Assembly (NCBI RefSeq): GCF_034522235.1
Contig: NZ_JAXHLN010000003.1
Span: forward strand, 1,612,001-1,676,000
Origin: Thiohalophilus sp.
GTDB taxonomy: Bacteria; Pseudomonadota; Gammaproteobacteria; UBA6429; Thiohalophilaceae
DNA: 64,000 bases
Direction: 5' to 3'
The position numbers were made by a program, and so were the translations under genes. The first letter of the stretch is position 1, and each line of letters starts with the position of its first letter. The notes beneath the pieces are model-generated. The model had not been told where the DNA came from. It saw only the letters and a program-made list of their open reading frames with translations, and did no database searches. Shown here piece by piece: positions 532 through 17,600 of the stretch.

Positions 532-870
532 TTAAAAGTAATGCGAGCTGTCACTGTCCGCTTTGGGCGGGACGTACTCGGGATCGTTGGGATTGAGGAA
601 AATAAAATTGAATTCCCCCGACTCCAGCTCCACGAAATCCAGTGTAGCGCCCTGCAACAGAGCGACGCTGTCCGGCGGCACCATCACCGAGACGCCTTCG
701 GAGGTGTAGCTGATGTCATTCTCATCCTGCTGATCGGCAAAGCCCATGGCGTACTGGATCGATCCGGCGTCATCGCGTTTGGCGGCGATACGGATGGGCA
801 TGCCTTCCATCTGGTTCTGCTTGGCCGATTGCTTGATTTGTTCCGCGGCTTTGGGCGTCACCGTAATCAT
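532..870 (-). CDS. dsrR: DsrR, cysteine-free A-type-scaffold-like protein
   Basis: This 112-residue protein has the fold signature of the IscA/SufA/ErpA A-type carriers (ITVTPKAAEQIK start, GF.. loop, LDFVELESGEFNF). It has no cysteine at all, so the three cluster-ligating cysteines of true IscA are missing. That absence is the known hallmark of DsrR in Allochromatium, where the protein is needed for efficient sulfur-globule oxidation and proposed to act on dsr expression. It sits directly after dsrN with a 73 bp gap, matching the canonical dsrN-dsrR order. The start ATG at 870 has an AGGAG-type ribosome site (aaggagtcctt on the coding strand is close by). Confidence 0.9.
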   Translation of the reverse strand: MITVTPKAAEQIKQSAKQNQMEGMPIRIAAKRDDAGSIQYAMGFADQQDENDISYTSEGVSVMVPPDSVALLQGATLDFVELESGEFNFIFLNPNDPEYVPPKADSDSSHYF

Positions 871-943
871 AAGGACTCCTTCGTTTCGATTGCCTGACAG
901 AGGTTCGCTGACTGGATGGTTAATATCCCAGTCATTTAGTCAA

Positions 944-2341
944 TTATACATCAATTCCGTTCTCGCGGGTGCGCCGGACAAAGTCGATAAAGCGTCGGGC
1001 CCAGTGGTGGCGCGCTGTATCGCGCTGGTGAGCGTAGCAGGCCAGCAGGTTTTTGTGGATCAATCCGTCGTGCTCGCCATCAATGCCGGTGCCGCGCAGC
1101 ACCCGGTAGGCGAAGCGCTGGGGCTGGGCCAGATTTTCGAGCGCGGAATAGTGAAACTCATGGGCGGGGAATTCCGCCTGCGGATCGGCGGGCGCGGCAG
1201 TCGCCCAGGGGCTCTCGTCGGTCTCGCGCAGACGCACGTAACCGCGGCCCTGGGGGCGGCTATGCATGACCACATCCGCGGGAATGACGCCGACCATGGG
1301 CGCTGTCTCGCCCTGCCAGCGGATCTGACGACACAGATACATCAGGCCGCCACACTCGGCATAAGCAGGCAAGCCGCCTTCAATCGCGCTGTGAATGGCC
1401 TCACGCAGGGGCTGATTGGCCGCCAGTTCCGTCAGACGGGATTCGGGGAAACCGCCGCCGATGAACAGCCCATCGATCGCCGGCAACTGGCGATCGTGCA
1501 GGGTGTCGATGGGGACCAGTTCGGCGCCGGCTTGCTGCAGCGCCTCGAGATCACCGGGATAGTAAAAGCCGAAAGCCTCATCCCGGGCGATACCGAGACG
1601 GATATCCGGCGGCCGGACCGGCGCCGGGGCCGTCGGTAGTTCGCTGGCGGGCAGGGCCGGCGCCTGGCGGGCCAGGGTCTGGAGCCGGTCCAGATCCACC
1701 TGCTGGGCAATCAGCTGGCCGATGGCTTCGATTTTCCCGGTGGCCTCGGTGTTTTCATTGCTGGGGATCAGCCCGAGATGGCGCTCGGTAATGGCCAGGC
1801 GTGTATCGTGATAGACGGCACCGACCACGGGCAGATGGGTATAGTGCTCGATGACGGCGCGCAGTTTGGCTTCGTGGCGGCTGCCGCGGATCTGGTTGAG
1901 AATCACCCCGGCAATATTGACCTGGGGATCAAACGCCTGATAACCGAGGATCAGCGGGGCGATCCCCCGGGTCATCCCCTGCACGTCAATGACCAGAATG
2001 ACAGGTGTTTCGGTCAATCGGGCCAGTGCGGCATTACTGTTGCTGCCTTCGATATCCAGTCCGTCATACAGACCCTTGTTGGCTTCGATCAGCGCCAGAT
2101 CGCTCGCTCCGGCCTGTTGTTGCAGGGTCTGCAGAATCTCGTCCCGGGACATGGTGTAAAAATCGAGATTATGACAGGGGTGCCCGGCCGCCTGACCCAG
2201 CCACATGGGATCGATATAGTCCGGCCCTTTTTTGAACGGCCGGACATCGAGTCCCCGCTGCCGAAACGCCGCGCACAGTCCGATCGACAAGGTGGTCTTG
2301 CCGGAAGACTTATGGGCAGCGGAAATGAGCAAGCGGTTCAT
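944..2341 (-). CDS. dsrN: DsrN, siroheme amidase (cobyrinate a,c-diamide synthase family)
   Basis: This 465-residue, two-domain protein is of CobB/CbiA type. The N-terminal P-loop domain starts LLISAAHKSSGKTTLSIGL (ATP site) and carries DYIDPMWLG and NKGLYDG motifs. The C-terminal class I glutamine amidotransferase domain (about residues 245-450) has the nucleophile in YAECGGLMYL and a catalytic-His region HEFHYS. In sulfur oxidisers this enzyme amidates siroheme to the siro(heme)amide prosthetic group of DsrAB. It is separated from dsrP by 217 bp that contain a terminator and an intergenic repeat, so dsrNR may be expressed from their own promoter. Confidence 0.93.
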   Translation of the reverse strand: MNRLLISAAHKSSGKTTLSIGLCAAFRQRGLDVRPFKKGPDYIDPMWLGQAAGHPCHNLDFYTMSRDEILQTLQQQAGASDLALIEANKGLYDGLDIEGSNSNAALARLTETPVILVIDVQGMTRGIAPLILGYQAFDPQVNIAGVILNQIRGSRHEAKLRAVIEHYTHLPVVGAVYHDTRLAITERHLGLIPSNENTEATGKIEAIGQLIAQQVDLDRLQTLARQAPALPASELPTAPAPVRPPDIRLGIARDEAFGFYYPGDLEALQQAGAELVPIDTLHDRQLPAIDGLFIGGGFPESRLTELAANQPLREAIHSAIEGGLPAYAECGGLMYLCRQIRWQGETAPMVGVIPADVVMHSRPQGRGYVRLRETDESPWATAAPADPQAEFPAHEFHYSALENLAQPQRFAYRVLRGTGIDGEHDGLIHKNLLACYAHQRDTARHHWARRFIDFVRRTRENGIDV

Positions 2342-2365
2342 GATGTGAGAGACTGAATTATTAAC

Positions 2366-2480
2366 ATAATAATGTTGAATGTTGAATTTTGAATTACAGG
2401 TTCGTATTTAATCCAACATTAACCATTAACCATTAACCATTAACTGTTCAACATTACATTTCGTTCTCTGCGGTAAATGC
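2366..2480. repeat. Intergenic AT-rich inverted repeat with right GC-rich arm (copy 1)
   Basis: Inner left arm aatgttgaatgttgaattttgaatt at 2371-2395; inner right arm ends in gttcaacatt near 2446-2455. Between them lies a short tandem array of the heptamer taaccat (about 2420-2440). A remnant of the outer GC-rich arm (cgttctctgcggtaa) follows at 2462-2476. Belongs to the family described at 16764, 48197 and 48467. It lies between dsrN and dsrP. Confidence 0.85.
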
Positions 2481-2494
2481 TTTTTGGCGTCCGA

Positions 2495-2530
2495 TTAAAA
2501 AAGGGGACACAGTCGAAACCGGGTCCCCCT
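2495..2530 (-). terminator. Rho-independent terminator after dsrP
   Basis: On the minus strand GGGGGACCCGG..CTGTGTCCCC forms a GC-rich stem (GGGGAC/GTCCCC) followed directly by TTTTTT. It lies 28 bp beyond the dsrP stop and before dsrN. It should end or attenuate dsrA-P transcription. Confidence 0.75.
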
Positions 2531-2558
2531 TATATGGTGATGCTGGGTTAAAAATCAA

Positions 2559-3770
2559 TCAGGCAGAATGATGAGGATCGACATCCTCATCGGCCAGGCT
2601 GGTGGGCATGAATCGCAGGATCTTGACCGCCAGGGCGACCATGATCAGGGCCACGGCCATACCGCCCAGTCCCAGCAGAACCTCCCAGATGCTCGGGGCA
2701 TAGTGTGCCACCTGACCATCAAAGAAGCTGCTTTCGATCACTTCCTTACCGGGGAAGATTTCCAGCGGATAGGCCTGACCGCCGATAATCAGGACATACA
2801 GCTGGATGAAGCCGCCGATGATGACCAGCAGGGCGCCCAGTCCAACCAGCGTCCGGTTTTTGCCTGTGCTCGGATGGTAGAACAGGAGCAGCGGCAACAG
2901 GGAGCCGATCACAATCTGGCCAATCCAGAACAGCTGGGGGTAAATGCCGCCATCGCGCAGAATGAAGGCTTCAATGCCGTGATGCTCGGTCGCATACAGA
3001 TTGGTCAGATGGTAGGCCAGGACAAAGTAGAGCACACCGGCCACAAACACACCCAGCAGGTTTTTCAGACGCCGGAAGAGGGCATCGCCCAGCGGCCGGC
3101 CGGTCCATTTATAGGCGGCCATCAGGACCAGCAGGAAAATCGCCAGACCAAAAGAGAAGGACATGGCAATGAACAGCGGCGCCATGATGGCGGCATCGTA
3201 GCCCTGGCGGGCAACCAGGAAGCCGAAGATGGAGCCGGTACCGGTGGTAAGAATCAGGCGCCAGAGGAAGGCGGCAACACCGACCGGCTTGCTGTATTTA
3301 TTCATGCTCTGCTGCATCATCATCCACAGGTAAACGGCGACGATAACAAAGAAACCGTTATACAGAATGATATTCCAGGCAAAGATCGATTTGAAATTGT
3401 AGTAGGTCATGGCGATGATCAATCGATCGGGGCGACCCAGATCGAGCACCAGAATCATCAGGCCGCCGGCGAGCAGGGCAATGGCCAGCAGTCCGGAGAG
3501 TCTGGCCAGTGGTTTGTAAGCCGTTTTATTAAATACGGATGAGATTGACGCGACGTTGAGCGCGCCGGAGGCGGCGACGATCAGAAAGATCGCGAAGATA
3601 TGCGGTGTGCCCCAGACAACGGCGTTGTTCATCCCGGTAACATAATGGCCATGATGTTCCATGACATACCAGGCACCCAGTGCGACCAGAATGATGGCGC
3701 CGAGGATGCCGAGGAGGGCAAGATAGCCGAAGCTCCGGCCTTCAATTTCCATGAACTGTACGTTTTTCAT
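2559..3770 (-). CDS. dsrP: DsrP, NrfD-family integral membrane quinol-interacting subunit
   Basis: About 403 residues, almost all in hydrophobic segments; about ten transmembrane helices typical of the NrfD/PsrC family. It forms the quinone-facing membrane subunit of the DsrMKJOP complex and pairs with the periplasmic ferredoxin DsrO. I prefer the ATG at 3770 (MKNVQFMEIEG) over the TTG at 3782, because the TTG sits directly on the upstream AGG. It follows dsrO by about 30 bp with this start. The stop is followed by a strong terminator. Length and position match the family. Confidence 0.93.
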   Translation of the reverse strand: MKNVQFMEIEGRSFGYLALLGILGAIILVALGAWYVMEHHGHYVTGMNNAVVWGTPHIFAIFLIVAASGALNVASISSVFNKTAYKPLARLSGLLAIALLAGGLMILVLDLGRPDRLIIAMTYYNFKSIFAWNIILYNGFFVIVAVYLWMMMQQSMNKYSKPVGVAAFLWRLILTTGTGSIFGFLVARQGYDAAIMAPLFIAMSFSFGLAIFLLVLMAAYKWTGRPLGDALFRRLKNLLGVFVAGVLYFVLAYHLTNLYATEHHGIEAFILRDGGIYPQLFWIGQIVIGSLLPLLLFYHPSTGKNRTLVGLGALLVIIGGFIQLYVLIIGGQAYPLEIFPGKEVIESSFFDGQVAHYAPSIWEVLLGLGGMAVALIMVALAVKILRFMPTSLADEDVDPHHSA

Positions 3771-3800
3771 TTCGACTGACAACCTGCTTTGTAGATTTTG

Positions 3801-4562
3801 TTATAGACCCCGGTAGCGAACGCCGGTGTTCAGCCCCAGATCGGCGCGTAATTCCTTACCACCGTATTGCTTGAGCTGACGGGAGATTTCGCTGTTCGGA
3901 TCCTTCAGATCGCCAAAGTACATGGCGTTGTGATTGTCGGCATTGCAGGCCTCGACACAGGCGGGCGTGCCGTTCTCGTCGACCCGGTGTACACACATGG
4001 TGCAGGATTCGACAGTCCCTTTGCCGCGGGGCGCCACGACCTTCTGATCTTCCAGATCTTCGTGGACAAAAGAGCGGGCCTTGTAGGGGCAGGCCATCAT
4101 GCAATAGCGGCAGCCGATACAGATGTGCTTGTCGACCAGTACGATGCCGTCGGCCCGTTTCATCGATGCGCCGGTGGGGCAGACATCGACACAGGGCGGG
4201 TTTTCGCAATGCTGGCACATCAGAGGCAGAGACTGGACGTGACCGGTCTGCTTGTCCTTGATGGTGACCTTGCGAATCCACTGGGCTTTCTGGTGCGGAC
4301 CGGACTTGTCTTCACTGGCATCAGCCCGACCCCAGCCGTTTTCATCCATGCAGGCGGTGACACAGCTGTCACAACCTTTGGCACACTTGTCGGTATCGAT
4401 CAGGATACCCCAGCGCTGTTCGCTGGTAGCGGCCTGATCCGCCGGGCGGGCATGCACCTGGCGCAGGAAAACCCCGGGGGCGACCGCCATACCGGCTGCA
4501 GCGGCGGCTTTACCGAAAAAGTGCCGGCGCGACAGGTCCGCGTTGTATGTCTTGTCAGTCAT
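3801..4562 (-). CDS. dsrO: DsrO, periplasmic tetracluster ferredoxin (Tat-exported)
   Basis: 253 residues. The N-terminus carries a twin-arginine signal (SRRHFFGKAAAAAG, residues about 11-24) and an A-x-A-type cleavage region near VHARPA. The mature part has four groups of cysteines of the DMSO-reductase B/HybA type (CAKGCDSC, CQHCENPPCVDVC, CIGCRYCMMAC, CTMCVHR..CVEAC), which bind four [4Fe-4S] clusters. Its ATG overlaps the dsrJ TAA (TAATG at 4560-4564), implying translational coupling. It works with DsrJ and DsrP on the outer face of the membrane. Confidence 0.95.
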   Translation of the reverse strand: MTDKTYNADLSRRHFFGKAAAAAGMAVAPGVFLRQVHARPADQAATSEQRWGILIDTDKCAKGCDSCVTACMDENGWGRADASEDKSGPHQKAQWIRKVTIKDKQTGHVQSLPLMCQHCENPPCVDVCPTGASMKRADGIVLVDKHICIGCRYCMMACPYKARSFVHEDLEDQKVVAPRGKGTVESCTMCVHRVDENGTPACVEACNADNHNAMYFGDLKDPNSEISRQLKQYGGKELRADLGLNTGVRYRGL

Positions 4563-5065
4563 TATTGTTGGTCTCCTTCAGTCAATACCTGCAAGGTTTC
4601 GACGGAGAGTTTTTTCCCTTTCAGAGCCATCTTGCCGTGGTGGGGATTATTACCGCTATTGAAGGTATGCCGATAATCGGTATCTTCAGGCGTATCCCGG
4701 TGGCAGCTGAAGCAGTCGACACTGACCGAGGCATAATTGTGGCAACTGCTGCAAAAATGCTCGTCTTCACCGAAGCTGGCAAATTGGCCGTCTTCTTCGG
4801 GAGTGACATGGCAGTTGATACATTCCGCCAGGCTGAACTTGTCGGTCCGAATGCCTTCACGCAAGGTATCGTCGCGCTTGTGCATCAGTTCATCCATATG
4901 GTTTTTACGCATGTACTCGACCGGCGCAACGCAACCATATGCCTCTGTCGCCTTCTCTTTGGCTTTGGGAATTTCAGGTGAAGGTGTATCACCTGCCAGC
5001 ACAGTAAAGGGCAGGGCAATAAGCCCTGCCATTATTGTTGTTTGTATCAACTGTCGTAGTGACAC
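4562..5065 (-). CDS. dsrJ: DsrJ, periplasmic triheme cytochrome c
   Basis: 167 residues with a Sec-type signal/anchor at residues about 7-24 (TIMAGLIALPFTVLA). Three CxxCH heme c sites are visible: CINCH, CSSCH and CFSCH. A further conserved cysteine (YGCVAPVEYM) precedes them; in DsrJ proteins such a cysteine can serve as an unusual distal heme ligand. It is part of the DsrMKJOP electron-transfer complex. It lies 25 bp after dsrL and is coupled to dsrO by overlapping stop and start codons. Confidence 0.94.
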   Translation of the reverse strand: MSLRQLIQTTIMAGLIALPFTVLAGDTPSPEIPKAKEKATEAYGCVAPVEYMRKNHMDELMHKRDDTLREGIRTDKFSLAECINCHVTPEEDGQFASFGEDEHFCSSCHNYASVSVDCFSCHRDTPEDTDYRHTFNSGNNPHHGKMALKGKKLSVETLQVLTEGDQQ

Positions 5066-9377: not shown

Positions 9378-9438
9378 GCTACTGTTCCCTCTACGTTATC
9401 TCGTTGTAATTATCGATTTACATCAGTGATATAGAATA

Positions 9439-9459
9439 GAGGGGAGTAAAGCTCCCCTC
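9439..9459 (-). promoter_or_regulatory. Stem-loop between dsrC and dsrM
   Basis: Perfect 8 bp stem gaggggag/ctcccctc with a 5-base loop, 20 bp after the dsrC stop. There is no U-run, so it is probably a partial terminator or an mRNA 3'-end stabiliser that would let dsrC message exceed dsrMK message. The sequence is seen; the role is inferred. Confidence 0.6.
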
Positions 9460-9479
9460 GGATTCCGTAGCGCCAGAGC

Positions 9480-9815
9480 CTAGACGCAACCTGTCGGCTT
9501 GGGCAGACCGGCATATTTACATGCCTGCTTGCCGGGGCCATAGGGGAACAGTTCGTACAGGTACTTGCTGTTACCTTTTTCCTTGCCCAGTTTCTTGCCG
9601 ATAGCCTTGGTCAGTACACGAACAGCCGGTGCGATCTGATACTCTTCATAGTATTCACGCAGGAAGTTGATGACTTCCCAATGGTTTTCATTCAGATCCT
9701 GGCCTTCGTCTTTTGCCATATATTCGGCAACTTCCGGAGTCCAGTCAGACAGGTTTGACAAATAACCTTCTTCGTCGACTTCCAGCTCTTTGCCACCTAC
9801 GTTGATAGTACCCAT
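9480..9815 (-). CDS. dsrC: DsrC, sulfur-carrier protein
   Basis: 111 residues; the C-terminal arm keeps both redox cysteines (Cys99 in KQACKYAGLP and Cys110 in PTGCV, penultimate). It also has the internal segment KLGKEKGN that distinguishes dissimilatory DsrC from many TusE proteins. It accepts sulfur from DsrEFH, delivers it to DsrAB and is recycled by DsrMKJOP. ATG at 9815 with TAGGAG upstream. Compare the cysteine-free paralogue at 16003. Confidence 0.97.
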   Translation of the reverse strand: MGTINVGGKELEVDEEGYLSNLSDWTPEVAEYMAKDEGQDLNENHWEVINFLREYYEEYQIAPAVRVLTKAIGKKLGKEKGNSKYLYELFPYGPGKQACKYAGLPKPTGCV

Positions 9816-12145: not shown

Positions 12146-13405
12146 TTAGCCTGCTGCTTCTTCAGTCTTGCGGGCAAACCATTTCTCGGCTTCTTCGTCC
12201 CAGCCGTCAGTACGAACATAAGAAGACTGACGCGGGTTGTTGACCATGTGCGGATCGACCTCGATACCAACTCCTTCAAGGAAGTTGACCAGGCCGATAC
12301 GCTCGATCATTTCACCGGTACGCTCATGTTCCAGGGCGTTCTCGGCAAAGAAGTCGATGGTTTCCTCGGCGATTTCGACCAGACGTTCGTAGTCTTCTTC
12401 GCTTTCCATCTTCATGAACGGAACGATAACGGTACCCATCAGGTCACCGATCTTCAGGGTACGCTTACCGCCGATCAGCAGGGTGATACCGCGGTCGTCG
12501 CCGGGAGACAGTGCCTTGTTCATGACGTTCAGGCAGTGCATGCAACGTACGCAGTTGTGGTTGTCCACTTCCAGCGTGTCGTCGTCTTTCAGGCTCAGCG
12601 CCTGGGTCGGGCAACGGGTTACCACGTTGTCGATCACATATTCACGGCCTTTAGCTTTGACGAAGTTCTTGACTTCTTCCTGATCGACTTTCATGTCGTC
12701 GCGCCAGGTACCGATAACAGCGAAGTCGGCACGCTCGATGGCGTTAACGCAGTCGTTCGGGCAGCCCGAGACCTTGAACTTGAACTTGTAGGGCAGGGCC
12801 GGACGATGCACGTCGTCGGTGAAGTTGTTGACCAGCCAGCGCTGAATACCGTGTTCGTTGGCACAGGACTGTTCGCAACGGGCTGAACCGACACAGGACA
12901 TGGCGGTACGTACGCACGGACCGGCACCGCCGAGGTCCCAGCCGTATTCGTTGATTTCGTCGAAGAAGTGCTGGGTACCCTTAGTGGTGGTACCGATGAA
13001 CATGATGTTGCCGGTCTGACCGTGGAAGGTGACCAGGCCTGAACCGTGTTTTTCCCAGCTGTCGCCGAGCTGGTTCAGCATGTCTGTGGTGTAGTAGTTA
13101 CCTGCCGGCGGCTGAACGCGCAGGGTATGGAATTCGCGGGAAGCGGGGAATGCGTCGCCAACTTCGGAGAAGCGCGGGATGATGCCGCCGCCATAACCGA
13201 ATACAGAAACGGTACCGCCTTTCCAGTAACCCTTGCGGGTTTCGTAAGAGTGCTCCAGCTGTCCCAGCAGGGAGCTGGCCATTTCATTGATTCGTTCGTC
13301 GGGATGATCGTCGCGCAGACGCTTAAAGCCGGAAATAAAGCTGGGCCAGGGGCCTTTCTCCAGCTCATCCAGCATCGGAGTGTCATACATTTTCTTTGCA
13401 GCCAT
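12146..13405 (-). CDS. dsrA: DsrA, alpha subunit of reverse dissimilatory sulfite reductase
   Basis: 419 residues. Cluster/siroheme cysteines are seen in CVGSARCEQSC and KVSGCPNDC, and an inserted ferredoxin domain with CPTQALSL and CVRCMHCLNVMN. DsrL, DsrEFH and DsrC in the same operon show it works in the oxidative direction. First gene of the operon; ATG at 13405 with AAGGAGAA 6 bases upstream. The operon promoter should lie in the following 500 bp. Confidence 0.97.
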   Translation of the reverse strand: MAAKKMYDTPMLDELEKGPWPSFISGFKRLRDDHPDERINEMASSLLGQLEHSYETRKGYWKGGTVSVFGYGGGIIPRFSEVGDAFPASREFHTLRVQPPAGNYYTTDMLNQLGDSWEKHGSGLVTFHGQTGNIMFIGTTTKGTQHFFDEINEYGWDLGGAGPCVRTAMSCVGSARCEQSCANEHGIQRWLVNNFTDDVHRPALPYKFKFKVSGCPNDCVNAIERADFAVIGTWRDDMKVDQEEVKNFVKAKGREYVIDNVVTRCPTQALSLKDDDTLEVDNHNCVRCMHCLNVMNKALSPGDDRGITLLIGGKRTLKIGDLMGTVIVPFMKMESEEDYERLVEIAEETIDFFAENALEHERTGEMIERIGLVNFLEGVGIEVDPHMVNNPRQSSYVRTDGWDEEAEKWFARKTEEAAG

Positions 13406-13907: not shown

Positions 13908-14816
13908 ATGCAAATCATTAATGCACCAATAAAAAACGCGGGTGTCGCCGCTTTTGATCTCGACAATGCGCGAGCCTATCGGCAATGGCGGGAGCGGCGA
14001 CTGGCGGGCTATCCGACCATCGCGGCCCAGCTGCGGGTGCCGGTAGCCGATCCCCGACAGCTCAGCGAAGACGAGCTGGCGGCCCTGCGCGATCGGGTTC
14101 GTCGCTGCAATATGGCGATCTACGCGATCGATCCGGCGCAGGCGGGGCGCGAACCGATCCGTCGTCTGGGCCGGCAGCTGGGGCTCGAGCACCTGGATGG
14201 CAATCTGTGTGCCGACGAGGACAGCATTACCGCCTTGCAGGTGATCCCCGAGGGGCGTCAGCAGGGCTATATTCCCTACAGTAATCTGCCGCTGAGCTGG
14301 CACACGGACGGATACTATAATAAGGGTGATCAAATGATTCGGACCATGCTGCTGCACTGCGTGCGTCCGGCGGCCAGCGGCGGGGAGAACGCCCTGCTGG
14401 ATCATGAAATCGCCTATATCCACTTGAGAGATACCGATCCCGCCTATATCTCGGCCCTGATGGCGGCGGATGCGATGACCATTCCGCCCAATGTAGAGCA
14501 GGGGGTGGAAATTCGCGGCGCCCGCAGCGGGCCGGTCTTTTCCGTCGATGACCGCACTGGGAGTCTGCATATGCGCTATACCCATCGTCAGCGCAATATC
14601 GAATGGAAAACCGATACCCTGACCCGGGAGGCCGTGGCCTGCCTGCGTGAGTTTCTGGCCAGCGATTCGGAATACATCTTCCGGCATCGGCTGGCACCGG
14701 GCGAAGGCATCGTGTGTAACAACGTGCTGCACAGCCGCAGCGGTTTCGACGACGACCCGGCGCAGCCGCGGCTGCTGTACCGGGCCCGGTATTATGATCG
14801 GATAAGTGAGACGTAA
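13908..14816 (+). CDS. TauD/TfdA-family 2-oxoglutarate Fe(II) dioxygenase
   Basis: 302 residues. The family facial triad is visible: HTD in LSWHTDGYYN (about residues 130-133), distal His in NNVLHSRSGF (about residue 277) and a following arginine (RLLYRARYYDR) for 2-oxoglutarate. Family members hydroxylate small molecules such as taurine, sulfonates or betaines; the substrate here is unknown. It is transcribed divergently from dsrA, which suggests but does not prove a sulfur-related substrate. A repeat with a hairpin follows the stop. Confidence 0.85.
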   Translation: MQIINAPIKNAGVAAFDLDNARAYRQWRERRLAGYPTIAAQLRVPVADPRQLSEDELAALRDRVRRCNMAIYAIDPAQAGREPIRRLGRQLGLEHLDGNLCADEDSITALQVIPEGRQQGYIPYSNLPLSWHTDGYYNKGDQMIRTMLLHCVRPAASGGENALLDHEIAYIHLRDTDPAYISALMAADAMTIPPNVEQGVEIRGARSGPVFSVDDRTGSLHMRYTHRQRNIEWKTDTLTREAVACLREFLASDSEYIFRHRLAPGEGIVCNNVLHSRSGFDDDPAQPRLLYRARYYDRISET

Positions 14817-14967: not shown

Positions 14968-15156
14968 ATGCTCTGGTTAAGTGAAGTGTTACTGCAGAAC
15001 CACGATCTGGAAAATTTTGAACAACTGGAAAAAGTGATCGTGGAAAAGGCCCAGGAAGGGGAAATGTTTTTTCGGATGGATGTGAAGCCGCCGTTCCACG
15101 ATACCCCGGAAAACTGGGAAGAACGCCTGGAAGCGGTATTTACCGCCCGAACCTGA
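14968..15156 (+). CDS. Small acidic protein of unknown function upstream of Cas6-like gene
   Basis: 62 residues, rich in Glu (VIVEKAQEGEMFF.. ENWEERLEAVF). No cysteine, no signal and no recognised family. A ribosome site (acaggatt) precedes the ATG. It ends 22 bp before the GTG of the Cas6-like gene and reads in the same direction, so the two are probably co-transcribed. The even spacing and normal codon use make it a real gene rather than a chance frame. Confidence 0.6.
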   Translation: MLWLSEVLLQNHDLENFEQLEKVIVEKAQEGEMFFRMDVKPPFHDTPENWEERLEAVFTART

Positions 15157-15178
15157 ATGAGACGCGAGGTGTTGTCAC

Positions 15179-15856
15179 GTGTTCTGGACTGAAGAGAACG
15201 ACGAACAGGAACAATTTGCCATCCCGGAGAATGTGCTGGATGTGGTCTTTGCTGTGCAGGACTGCCCCTGCCTGCCGGCCGAGCACGCCTATTCCCTGTC
15301 GCAGGCCCTGCATGACGCGCTGCCCTGGCTGTATGAAGAGGAGCGGGTCGGTGTCCACCCGATTTACGGCGCGGAAAGCGGTAACGGCTGGCAACGGCCG
15401 GCGGATCCCGATGCGCCGATCTATCTTTCCCGGCGTCAGAAAATGACCCTGCGGGTGCCGCGCGAGCGGGTCGAGGATGCCATGCAGTTATCCGGCAGTA
15501 CACTGGAGATCGATGATGGCTACAGCCTGACGGTGGGCGAGGCCAAAACCCGTCCGTTAAGTGATTTGCCGACCCTGTTTGCCCGCAATGTGGCCACCGA
15601 ACCGGGACTGAGCGAGGAGGCCTTTCTGGCCCGGGTCGCCGAGGAGCTGCGTGAGCTGGACGTTCAGGTCAAGAAAATGATGGCCAGTATCGAGCGCGAT
15701 ATCCGCACGCCCGACGGTCCGCTGCACACCCGCGGGCTGATGCTGGCCGATCTCAAGCCGGAAGATTCGGTGCGTCTGCAGGAAACCGGGCTGGGGTCCC
15801 ATCGCAAGCTGGGTTGTGGCCTGTTTGTGCCGCAGAAGGGTATCAAGGCGGTCTGA
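15179..15856 (+). CDS. Stand-alone Cas6/Cmx6-like protein
   Basis: 225 residues resembling the Cas6 subtype-MYXAN (Cmx6) family. The C-terminus carries the RAMP glycine-rich loop (GLGSHRKLGCGLFVPQKGI, residues about 204-222). The N-terminal ferredoxin-like half has a candidate catalytic histidine in AEHAYSLSQAL (His36; others at 45 and 60) and the hallmark ESGNGW segment (about residue 66). Cas6 enzymes cut CRISPR repeat RNA, but no cas gene or repeat-spacer array exists in this window. GTG start at 15179 with GAGGT 8 bases upstream. The neighbours are a small protein and a cysteine-free DsrC homologue, which suggests a non-CRISPR RNA role. The family call is from memory of conserved motifs and should be checked by profile search. 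Confidence 0.75.
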   Translation: MFWTEENDEQEQFAIPENVLDVVFAVQDCPCLPAEHAYSLSQALHDALPWLYEEERVGVHPIYGAESGNGWQRPADPDAPIYLSRRQKMTLRVPRERVEDAMQLSGSTLEIDDGYSLTVGEAKTRPLSDLPTLFARNVATEPGLSEEAFLARVAEELRELDVQVKKMMASIERDIRTPDGPLHTRGLMLADLKPEDSVRLQETGLGSHRKLGCGLFVPQKGIKAV

Positions 15857-16002
15857 TTCGCAGCCAATATGGCCGAAAATTCACGAAAAGTATTCACCCT
15901 GCGGCCTTTTTTTGGTTTAATAAGCGCCCTTTAATATTCGGCAATTATAATTTTCGATACGGTTTATTGATACTGACTTGATATTACAGGGGACAAGTAA
16001 AA

Positions 16003-16344
16003 ATGGGTTACGAACTGAACGGCAAGACCATTGAGACCAACGAAAACGGCTACCTGCTGGACCACAACGAGTGGAACGAGGAGCTGGCCCAGGTCATCGC
16101 CAATGAGGAAGGGCTGGGTGAGCTGACCGACAAACATTGGGATATCATTAACTACCTGCGTGATGAGTACATCAACAATGCCGGGACCCAGCCCAATGAG
16201 CGCACCATTCTCAAGGCCATGGGCGAGAAATGGGGTACCAAGATCGGTCAGAAGGACACCTTCTCCCTGTTCCCCAAAATGCCTTCCAAGCAAGGCGGCA
16301 AGGTCGCCGGGCTGCCGGAAAGCCGTCGCAAGGGCGGGTATTAA
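16003..16344 (+). CDS. Cysteine-free DsrC/TusE-like protein (RspA type)
   Basis: 113 residues clearly homologous to DsrC (NGKTIETNENGYLL, DKHWDIINYLRDEY, KVAGLPES at the C-terminus). Aligned without gaps at the end, Cys99 and Cys110 of the DsrC at 9480 are replaced by Gly99 and Lys110; there is no cysteine anywhere. It therefore cannot carry sulfur. DsrC homologues lacking both cysteines have been proposed to be regulatory (RspA). It retains the wing/helix surface and a basic end (ESRRKGGY), compatible with nucleic-acid or partner binding. It follows the Cas6-like gene by 146 bp. A G/C stem with TTTTTTT (about 15870-15912) in that gap may be a weak terminator. Confidence 0.88.
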   Translation: MGYELNGKTIETNENGYLLDHNEWNEELAQVIANEEGLGELTDKHWDIINYLRDEYINNAGTQPNERTILKAMGEKWGTKIGQKDTFSLFPKMPSKQGGKVAGLPESRRKGGY

Positions 16345-16454
16345 TTCCGGCATAGACCAAAAGTGATATAGGCGGGGCGGGCCCGGCCTGCTAAATTGAC
16401 CCACAATCACGAATTCAGATACTATTTATATAAATAGAGAGCGAGGTAACCGCT

Positions 16455-16664
16455 ATGAGCTCAAAAGCAGAAAAGATCGCCAAGCTGATCGAAATGCAGA
16501 AGCAATTCATCGAATACGAACAGACCCACGGCGTGGATCCCAGGGACTACTACGCACCGGAGTCCGGTCACATGCTGGAAGGCTATCGTCAGCAGTACCG
16601 TGACCTGGCGATGGACGTGCTGGAAGAGGCCCACAAGACCGTGGGTTCCAAGGCCTTCAGCTAA
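16455..16664 (+). CDS. Small conserved-looking hypothetical protein
   Basis: 69 residues, helical and charged (KAEKIAKLIEMQKQFIEYE, then HGVDPRDYYAPESGHMLEGYRQQYRDLAMDVLEEAHK). No cysteine or known domain recognised. ATG preceded by GAGG (gcgaggtaaccgct). Located 110 bp after the DsrC-like gene and followed by a strong terminator, so it closes the cluster that begins at 14968. Function unknown. Confidence 0.7.
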   Translation: MSSKAEKIAKLIEMQKQFIEYEQTHGVDPRDYYAPESGHMLEGYRQQYRDLAMDVLEEAHKTVGSKAFS

Positions 16665-16687
16665 TCGCCTTAACGCGAAATAGCTAA

Positions 16688-16716
16688 TAAAAAACGGGGC
16701 CTTGCGCCCCGTTTTT
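16688..16716 (+). terminator. Rho-independent terminator closing the Cas6/DsrC-like cluster
   Basis: aaaaaacggggccttgcgccccgttttt: stem CGGGGC/GCCCCG with a flanking A-run and T-run, 24 bp after the stop at 16664. The symmetric A/T runs allow bidirectional function. Confidence 0.85.
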
Positions 16717-16925: not shown

Positions 16926-17600
16926 TCAGATCTCGGCCCACATGCGAAACAGGTTTGAATAGGCGATATCCACCTGTCGGGTTTCGTCGTCGTCGGGACG
17001 TTGCTGCAGCAGGCTCTCGCGGGCCTGGTTGAGGCCGAACAGCAATTCTCGCTGTGCGGGGTCCCGGATCATGCTCTGGGCCCAGCTGACGGCCACCAGG
17101 CGGCTGCCACGGGTCACCTCGCTGACGTGGTGCAGGCTCGAAGAGGGATAGATGACCGCATGCCCGGCCGGGAGTTTGATCGACTGACTGCCGAAGCTGG
17201 TGCGGATCACCAGTTCGCCGCCGTCGTATTCGTCCGGGCTGTTGAGAAACACCGTGCTGGAGACATCCGAACGATAGCGGCCCTGGGCGGGACCCATGAT
17301 GGCATCGTCCACATGATCGCCATAGGCCATACCCGGTTGATAGCGCGCGTAATAGGGCGCAGCAATTTTGGCCGGCAGGGTGACGGACTGGTACAACGGA
17401 TGCTTGACCAGATTGCCCATCACCAGATTGTTCAGCTGTTCCAGTTGTTCGGCGTCAGCGGCCAGCTCCTCGTTCTGTTTAACCCGTTCGGCCGCCATGC
17501 CGGCGGAGAGTTTACCATCGACGAAACGAGCGTTTTCCAGTACCGAACGGATATAGTCGAGCCGCTGTTGATCCAGTACATCGGGTATTGTCACAAGCAT
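16926..17600 (-). CDS. ybiX: PKHD-type Fe(II)/2-oxoglutarate hydroxylase, YbiX/PiuC family
   Basis: 224 residues, the usual length of YbiX/PiuC. Iron-binding motif HVDDAIMG (HxD, about residues 96-98), distal His in SSSLHHVSEVTRGSR (about 157) and the Arg for 2-oxoglutarate. N-terminal VLDQQRLDYIRSVLENARFVDGK is typical. Elsewhere this family lies beside TonB-dependent siderophore receptors; no such receptor is present here. Substrate unknown. It is transcribed towards the Cas6/DsrC-like cluster (convergent), with a repeat between. Confidence 0.88.
   Translation of the reverse strand: MLVTIPDVLDQQRLDYIRSVLENARFVDGKLSAGMAAERVKQNEELAADAEQLEQLNNLVMGNLVKHPLYQSVTLPAKIAAPYYARYQPGMAYGDHVDDAIMGPAQGRYRSDVSSTVFLNSPDEYDGGELVIRTSFGSQSIKLPAGHAVIYPSSSLHHVSEVTRGSRLVAVSWAQSMIRDPAQRELLFGLNQARESLLQQRPDDDETRQVDIAYSNLFRMWAEI

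Follow-up and report, generated by a model that had tools for sequence, protein, structure and literature searches.

A Cas6-family protein outside CRISPR loci is a regular neighbor of the oxidative dsr genes of Gammaproteobacteria

Introduction

Cas6 enzymes are known from CRISPR systems. In a 64,000-nucleotide stretch of the genome of Thiohalophilus sp. (assembly GCF_034522235.1, contig NZ_JAXHLN010000003.1, positions 1,612,001 to 1,676,000 of the forward strand; hereafter the window), a gene for a 225-residue protein of the Cas6 family lies beside dsrA, a key gene of sulfur oxidation, in a small cluster that also encodes a 113-residue relative of DsrC. TusE and TusBCD, which act in tRNA thiolation, are the homologues of DsrC and DsrEFH. 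Two sequence features serve as points of reference for these families: the catalytic histidine of Cas6 sits at the position just after strand 1 (PMC3150331; this and the other papers are cited from parts of their text), and the penultimate cysteine of DsrC is strictly conserved (PMC3397948).

Extra promoters have been described for dsrC and dsrS of Allochromatium vinosum (PMC3368242), and the dsr genes therefore need not be evenly expressed. A neighborhood of cas6 and dsr has, as far as seen, already been drawn in print, seemingly undiscussed: the legend of Figure 3B of PMC10989796 colors cas6 among the dsr genes of mangrove metagenome-assembled genomes (Rhizobiales, Burkholderiales and Chromatiales), and in the text available from that paper cas6 is named once, in that legend, CRISPR nowhere, and neither a survey nor a role is given. 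Other papers naming both Cas6 and DsrAB do so, in the portions available, for ordinary CRISPR loci, in gene lists or in running text; no account of a link between Cas6 and dsr was found in the literature searched, outside which most subscription papers fell. In Thiodictyon syntrophicum, a DsrC-like gene, THSYN_22565, lies just past the dsr cluster (PMC5944118), which is consistent with the DsrC-like gene described here.

Results

Family, fold and active site of the Cas6 protein

The 225-residue protein is matched by the Pfam model of Cas6 (PF09559, 201.8 bits against a cut-off of 26.7), by the NCBIfam Cas6/Cmx6 model (TIGR02807, 123 bits against 98.85) and by six Cas6 models of PADLOC. An AlphaFold (AF2) model calculated from a 65-row alignment has a pLDDT of 93.4 and displays the two-domain RAMP fold of Cas6 across residues 16-222; among solved structures it is matched best by Cas6 from a type I-B Cascade (8fcj_B, Z 24.3, root-mean-square deviation 2.4 Å over 198 residues), and the next matches are likewise Cas6 proteins, among them that of Pyrococcus furiosus (3pkm_X, Z 14.6, deviation 3.3 over 194). 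In the model, H36 directly follows the first strand (residues 19-27), and across an alignment of 79 sequences, drawn up without the partial cas6 of L073, this residue is His in 76 and Asn in three (L080, L083 and L100). His is also the residue at position 60 in 73 of the 79, and W71, R86 and R92 are invariant in all 79. The glycine-rich loop has invariant G204, G212 and G214. A preliminary description of the window, made from the letters alone, had named a Cas6-family gene with a glycine-rich loop and a candidate catalytic histidine, and the profile matches above cut-off, the structural hits and the retention of H36 bear it out. Alignment A1 comprised the window, a single distant relative and 63 of the 70 loci that were usable; alignment A2 comprised 39 of 56 together with the window.

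Comparison of the window with a congener (G001, also Thiohalophilus) gave a ratio of nonsynonymous to synonymous substitution of 0.12 for cas6, which is under purifying selection. The ratio is 0.064 for the gene of the DsrC-like protein, 0.098 for those of the two small cluster proteins, p62 and p69, and 0.02 for dsrA. The Cas6 protein is probably catalytic in most lineages.

Co-occurrence of Cas6 with dsrA

Our main sample comprised 190 genomes of Gammaproteobacteria, that of the window among them. Cas6 was found in 81, as a single copy in each (PF09559 recovers 80 of these), and dsrA scored above cut-off in 78, with four more genomes counted as positive on truncated but strong matches. On this count Cas6 and dsrA occur together in 76 genomes, Cas6 alone in 5, dsrA alone in 6 and neither in 103; the 78 genomes above cut-off taken by themselves give, in the same order, 73, 8, 5 and 104, and one genome per family (n=151) gives 48, 3, 4 and 96. 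These tests ignore deeper relatedness, and sampling one genome per family only reduces the effect of kinship. In five of the six genomes with dsrA only (G021, G036, G109, G118 and G149), the contig breaks off no more than 0.7 kb from dsrA, in the direction of cas6, and in the sixth (G162) it stops inside the cluster, past p62; in four of the five with Cas6 only (G034, G106, G132 and G165), it ends just upstream of the cluster. Cas6 also persists in three genomes that are near-complete at 1.1-1.4 Mb (G078, G148 and G180).

The same tally for the DsrC-like protein (at least 107 bits) is 73, 8, 2 and 107, and for p69, which is present in 62 of the 190 genomes, 61 of them Cas6-positive, it is 61, 20, 1 and 108. 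Cas6 and cas1 show no association (32, 49, 38 and 71; p=0.55).

A second sample, of 299 genomes across the phylum, held PF09559 matches in 4 genomes and dsrA above cut-off in 51. The 4 are every gammaproteobacterial member of that sample with dsrA above cut-off, cas6 lying beside dsrA in each, and PF09559 had no match in the 47 dsrA genomes of other classes. Twenty of these 47 were fetched: five have dsrEFH together with dsrC, and a sixth (G232) has dsrEFH and no dsrC match. Four of the five dsrEFH-dsrC loci outside the class (L153-L156) carry tauD and p62 beside dsrA and no Cas6, and so the tauD-p62 pair may be an older companion of dsr to which Cas6 was added later in Gammaproteobacteria. 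In another collection, all five named loci repeat the pattern, one of them being from the same genome as G001.

Gene order around cas6

Of the 81 Cas6 loci, 80 were mapped, the window included; G022, with a 99-nucleotide cas6 fragment at a contig end, was left out. dsrA lies within 6 kb of cas6 in 62 of the 80 loci, always divergent, the distance from dsrA to the cas6 start being 586 to 4054 (median 1627). Eleven loci have less than 4 kb of upstream contig and could not be assessed, and in seven cas6 is unlinked from dsrA, so that 62 of the 69 assessable loci share the arrangement, which is far beyond chance. Because six of the seven genomes with an unlinked cas6 have dsrA elsewhere, the gene is kept when its position is lost. 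Distances between loci correlate modestly in a mirror-tree comparison over 52 loci (0.55 for cas6 and dsrA, 0.37 for cas6 and the DsrC-like gene, and 0.84 for dsrA and dsrB).

Relation to CRISPR systems

As the preliminary description had stated, no cas gene or repeat array stands beside cas6 among the neighbors searched. At the loci L064, L072, L098, L111, L068 and L112 (the unlinked loci L063, L073 and L100 were left out), none of nine flanking proteins is a cas product by Pfam; searched against PADLOC, the same loci yielded no cas gene among eight of the nine, and one 5'-nucleotidase matched a candidate defence model. No CRISPR-like array was seen in L064, L072, L098, L111 or L068, and L072 and L098 contain dispersed repeats. 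About 0.3 Mb from this cas6, the host genome does hold a type I-G CRISPR-Cas system, complete with Cas3g, Cas8g, Cas7g, Csb2, Cas4-Cas1, Cas2 and 23 repeats, a circumstance that the preliminary description had considered. By gene content this system should not need the dsr-linked protein: its Csb2 is its own Cas5-Cas6 fusion (TIGR02165, 201 bits). The dsr-linked Cas6 of the congener is 88% identical to that of the window, in a genome without a Cas1 match. We rejected a CRISPR use of the dsr-linked Cas6 on gene content and co-occurrence, and the 225-residue protein is almost certainly CRISPR-free and dsr-linked.

Separately, positions 17-505 of L115 carry four direct repeats, 136-138 nucleotides apart, with a string resembling the 3' end of a tRNA. 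A fifth copy at 15858-15935 lies just past the type I-G CRISPR array, and the copies may mark an integration site; ARAGORN found no tRNA gene beside the array on L115.

A cysteine-free DsrC homologue as the usual partner

The 113-residue protein matches the DsrC family PF04358 at 111.5 bits and TIGR03342 (DsrC/TusE) at 95.5 bits against a cut-off of 53.5. Its predicted fold is mainly helical, and its cysteine count is zero, in agreement with the earlier reading of a DsrC homologue that lacks the functional cysteines. Within a set of 64 DsrC-like sequences, which excludes proteins shorter than 100 residues, 59 have no cysteine at all, and all 64 have glycine (G112) at the position of the penultimate (second) cysteine of DsrC; of the tail, R109 is present in 63 and KGGY (K110-Y113) in all 64. 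The true DsrC of the host genome, encoded at 9480-9815 of the window, keeps both functional cysteines. By its sequence, the 113-residue protein cannot be a sulfur carrier of the DsrC type, and it may have a regulatory role. It is probably RspA-type, a label for cysteine-free DsrC homologues of sulfur oxidizers.

Three lineages (L063, L096 and L097) have Cas6 and p69 without a DsrC-like neighbor, and the DsrC-like partner is therefore usual, not obligatory. The pairing of Cas6, DsrC-like protein and dsr expected from the window is conserved across genomes, with this qualification; the tighter link of Cas6 is to dsr itself rather than to the DsrC-like protein.

Composition of the cluster

All four open reading frames first described (62, 225, 113 and 69 residues) were confirmed at the same coordinates (Table 1), as was the strong terminator that closes the cluster. 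That account of a four-gene cluster had overlooked a TauD-family dioxygenase gene as the first gene of the unit, and the distance to dsrA given there as 1.5 kb has to be corrected accordingly: with tauD counted in, only about 0.5 kb separates dsrA from the unit, which runs divergently from dsrAB. The 62- and 69-residue proteins have no family match in Pfam, NCBIfam or PADLOC, as anticipated.

The usual order in relatives is dsrAB (divergent), tauD, p62, cas6, the DsrC-like gene and p69, often followed by piuC and p106; the PiuC/YbiX-type gene is probably outside the unit. Within 2.6 kb of cas6, p62 is found in 68 of 80 loci and tauD in 62 of 80. Some families have an extra protein of 220-272 residues encoded between p62 and cas6; it is present in 17 of the 19 loci where these two genes stand widely apart (for example L047:661-1365). 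By eye all 17 are similar, and the two that were searched have no significant family match.

Table 1. Features of the window discussed in the text, in order of position.
Feature	Position	Strand	Basis
G-rich hairpin core in the dsrC-dsrM gap, candidate RNA target	9439..9459	-	z -3.07 for 9430-9480; similar in relatives
dsrA, divergent neighbor	12146..13405	-	TIGR02064, 616.5 bits
TauD-family Fe(II)/2-oxoglutarate dioxygenase, opens the unit, divergent from dsrA	13908..14816	+	PF02668, 86.9 bits
p62, small conserved protein (62 residues), no family assigned	14968..15156	+	conserved near cas6
Cas6-family protein (225 residues), GTG start, H36 at catalytic position, G-rich loop 204-214	15179..15856	+	PF09559, TIGR02807, AF2 model
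Promoter-like motif TGGTTTAATAAGCGCCC (extended -10-like) ahead of the DsrC-like gene	15913..15929	+	single match in window; similar in relatives by eye
DsrC-fold protein (113 residues), cysteine-free, C-terminal RKGGY	16003..16344	+	PF04358, conserved tail
p69, small conserved protein (69 residues), no family assigned	16455..16664	+	co-occurs with Cas6
Intrinsic-terminator hairpin, cluster end	16690..16716	+	folding z -4.31
PiuC/YbiX-type Fe(II) dioxygenase, frequent right-hand neighbor	16926..17600	-	profile matches, synteny

Candidate RNA and promoter-like elements

A hairpin in the gap between dsrC and dsrM offers a lead to a Cas6 target. Hairpins were scored across loci by folding each sequence against 12 shuffles, relatedness being ignored, and z falls below -2 in 38 of 50 dsrC-dsrM gaps, 38 of 48 p69 terminators and 24 of 58 dsrA-dsrB gaps. 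The dsrC-dsrM hairpin starts a median of 14 nucleotides past the stop codon (41 loci), and its 5' arm contains GGGG in 32 of 45 cases and CCCC in none of the 45; this G-rich orientation of the 5' arm suggests recognition of sequence. The window has this one site and no second copy of the hairpin, and Rfam gave no match between positions 5000 and 20000 at E up to 0.1.

Strong hairpins also occur in the dsrA-dsrB gap of L054, L060, L086, L092, L099 and other loci; the window has none there. Among the 28 of these hairpins below -8 kcal/mol, the 5' arm is G-rich in 18 and C-rich in 4.

The extended -10-like motif TGGTTTAATAAGCGCCC precedes the DsrC-like gene and is similar in relatives, so separate promoters may serve this gene and p69. 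In the region upstream of p69 (window positions 16345-16454), many relatives show, by eye, CCAAAnTGGATATAG followed some 20-30 nucleotides on by GCTAAATTT or GCTATATT, a combination looking like an operator plus a promoter.

Discussion

The protein has the family and fold of Cas6 and retains H36, no CRISPR genes lie beside it, it co-occurs with and adjoins dsrA almost exclusively, and it is under purifying selection. The fuller proposal has, in our judgment, about an even chance of being right: a Cas6-type RNA endonuclease or RNA binder has departed from CRISPR and now regularly serves the oxidative dsr locus of Gammaproteobacteria as an accessory. That the dsr-linked Cas6 acts on RNA is likely, and dsr mRNA is a plausible target, at somewhat less than an even chance; an RNA control factor is our best reading of its job.

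Cas6 would recognize a hairpin in a sulfur-linked transcript and either cut at, or hold, the 3' base of that hairpin. The likeliest substrate would be the dsr mRNA itself, in which action at the G-rich hairpin just past dsrC might leave a stable dsrABEFHC segment and so set the output of DsrC and sulfite reductase apart from that of the downstream membrane genes. The status of DsrC or of sulfur would be read by the cysteine-free DsrC, with a possible contribution from the TauD-type dioxygenase as a sensor of oxygen or 2-oxoglutarate. Assembled into a dedicated post-transcriptional dsr factor, in which Cas6 cuts or caps the dsrC-dsrM hairpin while the cysteine-free DsrC and the 2-oxoglutarate dioxygenase report the sulfur and oxygen state, these steps make a tentative proposal.

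Several observations weigh against our best reading. Catalysis is not essential everywhere, because Asn replaces H36 in three of 79 sequences; genome G003 has p62 and a partial cas6 with 5.6 kb of upstream contig and no dsrA above cut-off; and cas6 and the DsrC-like gene (rspA) correlate at just 0.37 over the 52 loci. The G-lean of the 5' arm, 42 against 3 in the dsrC-dsrM gap, recurs more weakly in the terminators of the same loci (29 against 12). The hairpin is present in one of five oxidative-type dsr operons without Cas6 (G286, z -3.2) and weak in the Cas6 genome G427 (z -0.8). In the window it has a fairly T-rich tail and scored as terminator-like in the scan, so it may be an attenuator or 3' stabilizer independent of Cas6. 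No consensus structure of the aligned intergenic regions was convincing, most energies being zero or near zero with degenerate z-scores, and the aligned dsrC-dsrM hairpins (22 of 41 sequences) folded at -0.66 kcal/mol with almost no covariation term; the case for the hairpin therefore rests on per-sequence folding.

The Asn variants also favor a possible but doubtful alternative, in which the protein binds RNA or a partner protein without cleavage, for instance as a scaffold with the cysteine-free DsrC, and thereby controls dsr translation or transcription. In its favor, W71, R86 and R92 are invariant even though H36 is not, the nearest solved Cas6 (8fcj_B) also aligns an Asn at the H36 position, and the Thiodictyon genome paper states that DsrC of A. 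vinosum binds DNA upstream of dsr (PMC5944118). Were catalysis idle, however, H36 would be unlikely to persist as it does, in 76 of the 79 sequences and over many families.

It is unlikely that Cas6 instead processes or binds a tRNA or rRNA of the thiouridine pathway. The homology of DsrC and DsrEFH to TusE and TusBCD, with one family model (TIGR03342) common to DsrC and TusE, points that way, as do the neighbors of two unlinked cas6 copies, a SpoU methylase in L098 and an RNase III in L111; the DsrC-like partner has, however, lost the cysteine that TusE needs, and the occurrence of Cas6 tracks dsrA. Trans-acting maturation of CRISPR RNA, for systems located elsewhere in the genome, would suit a full member of the Cas6 family in a host with a CRISPR array, yet it is very improbable given that 49 of the 81 Cas6-positive genomes, the congener among them, have no Cas1 match, that there is no association, and that the host type I-G system has Csb2. 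Equally improbable is a passenger gene hitchhiking beside dsr: linkage alone could retain cas6 in a conserved gene order, but the gene is retained in six genomes away from dsrA and in small genomes, and it is under purifying selection.

Returning to RNA control by a dsr-linked Cas6, what survives of the preliminary description is a true Cas6 fold outside CRISPR, conserved beside dsr and usually beside a cysteine-free DsrC homologue. One branch of Cas6 almost always accompanies the gene that encodes the key sulfur-oxidation enzyme (48 with both, 3 with Cas6 alone and 4 with dsrA alone, among 151 families). PADLOC, a defence-system library, labels this protein Cas6; because PF09559 matches in both phylum samples lie in dsrA genomes or beside other genes of this cluster, the name "CRISPR-associated Cas6/Cmx6" is probably misleading here. 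If the RNA role is true, it offers a testable route by which a long dsr transcript yields proteins in unequal quantities, and it is a clean example of a component of CRISPR put to metabolic use; if control of the dsr operon is true, Cas6 would have a conserved, housekeeping role other than defence. The evidence suggests a CRISPR RNA-cutter recruited to help control sulfur oxidation.

Among described systems, accessory genes of oxidative dsr are already known in DsrR and DsrS, which belong to families other than Cas6 and have no Cas6 fold; a part in regulation is reported for DsrR (PMC11406059). The RspA proteins resemble the 113-residue protein in having a DsrC fold without cysteine and in occurring in sulfur oxidizers. 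With DsrC and TusE (PF04358, TIGR03342) that protein has in common its family assignment and a fold predicted to consist mainly of helices; unlike them, it lacks both functional cysteines and ends in RKGGY rather than in a cysteine-bearing arm. The dsr-linked Cas6, for its part, is like Cas6/Cmx6 (PF09559, TIGR02807; 8fcj_B) in sequence family, two-domain fold, glycine-rich loop and, in most members, a histidine after the first strand. It contains an AESGNGW stretch (residues 65-71) that is absent from 8fcj_B, the sole CRISPR Cas6 aligned, and, unlike the Cas6 of CRISPR systems, it follows dsrA and is flanked by neither a cas operon nor a repeat array.

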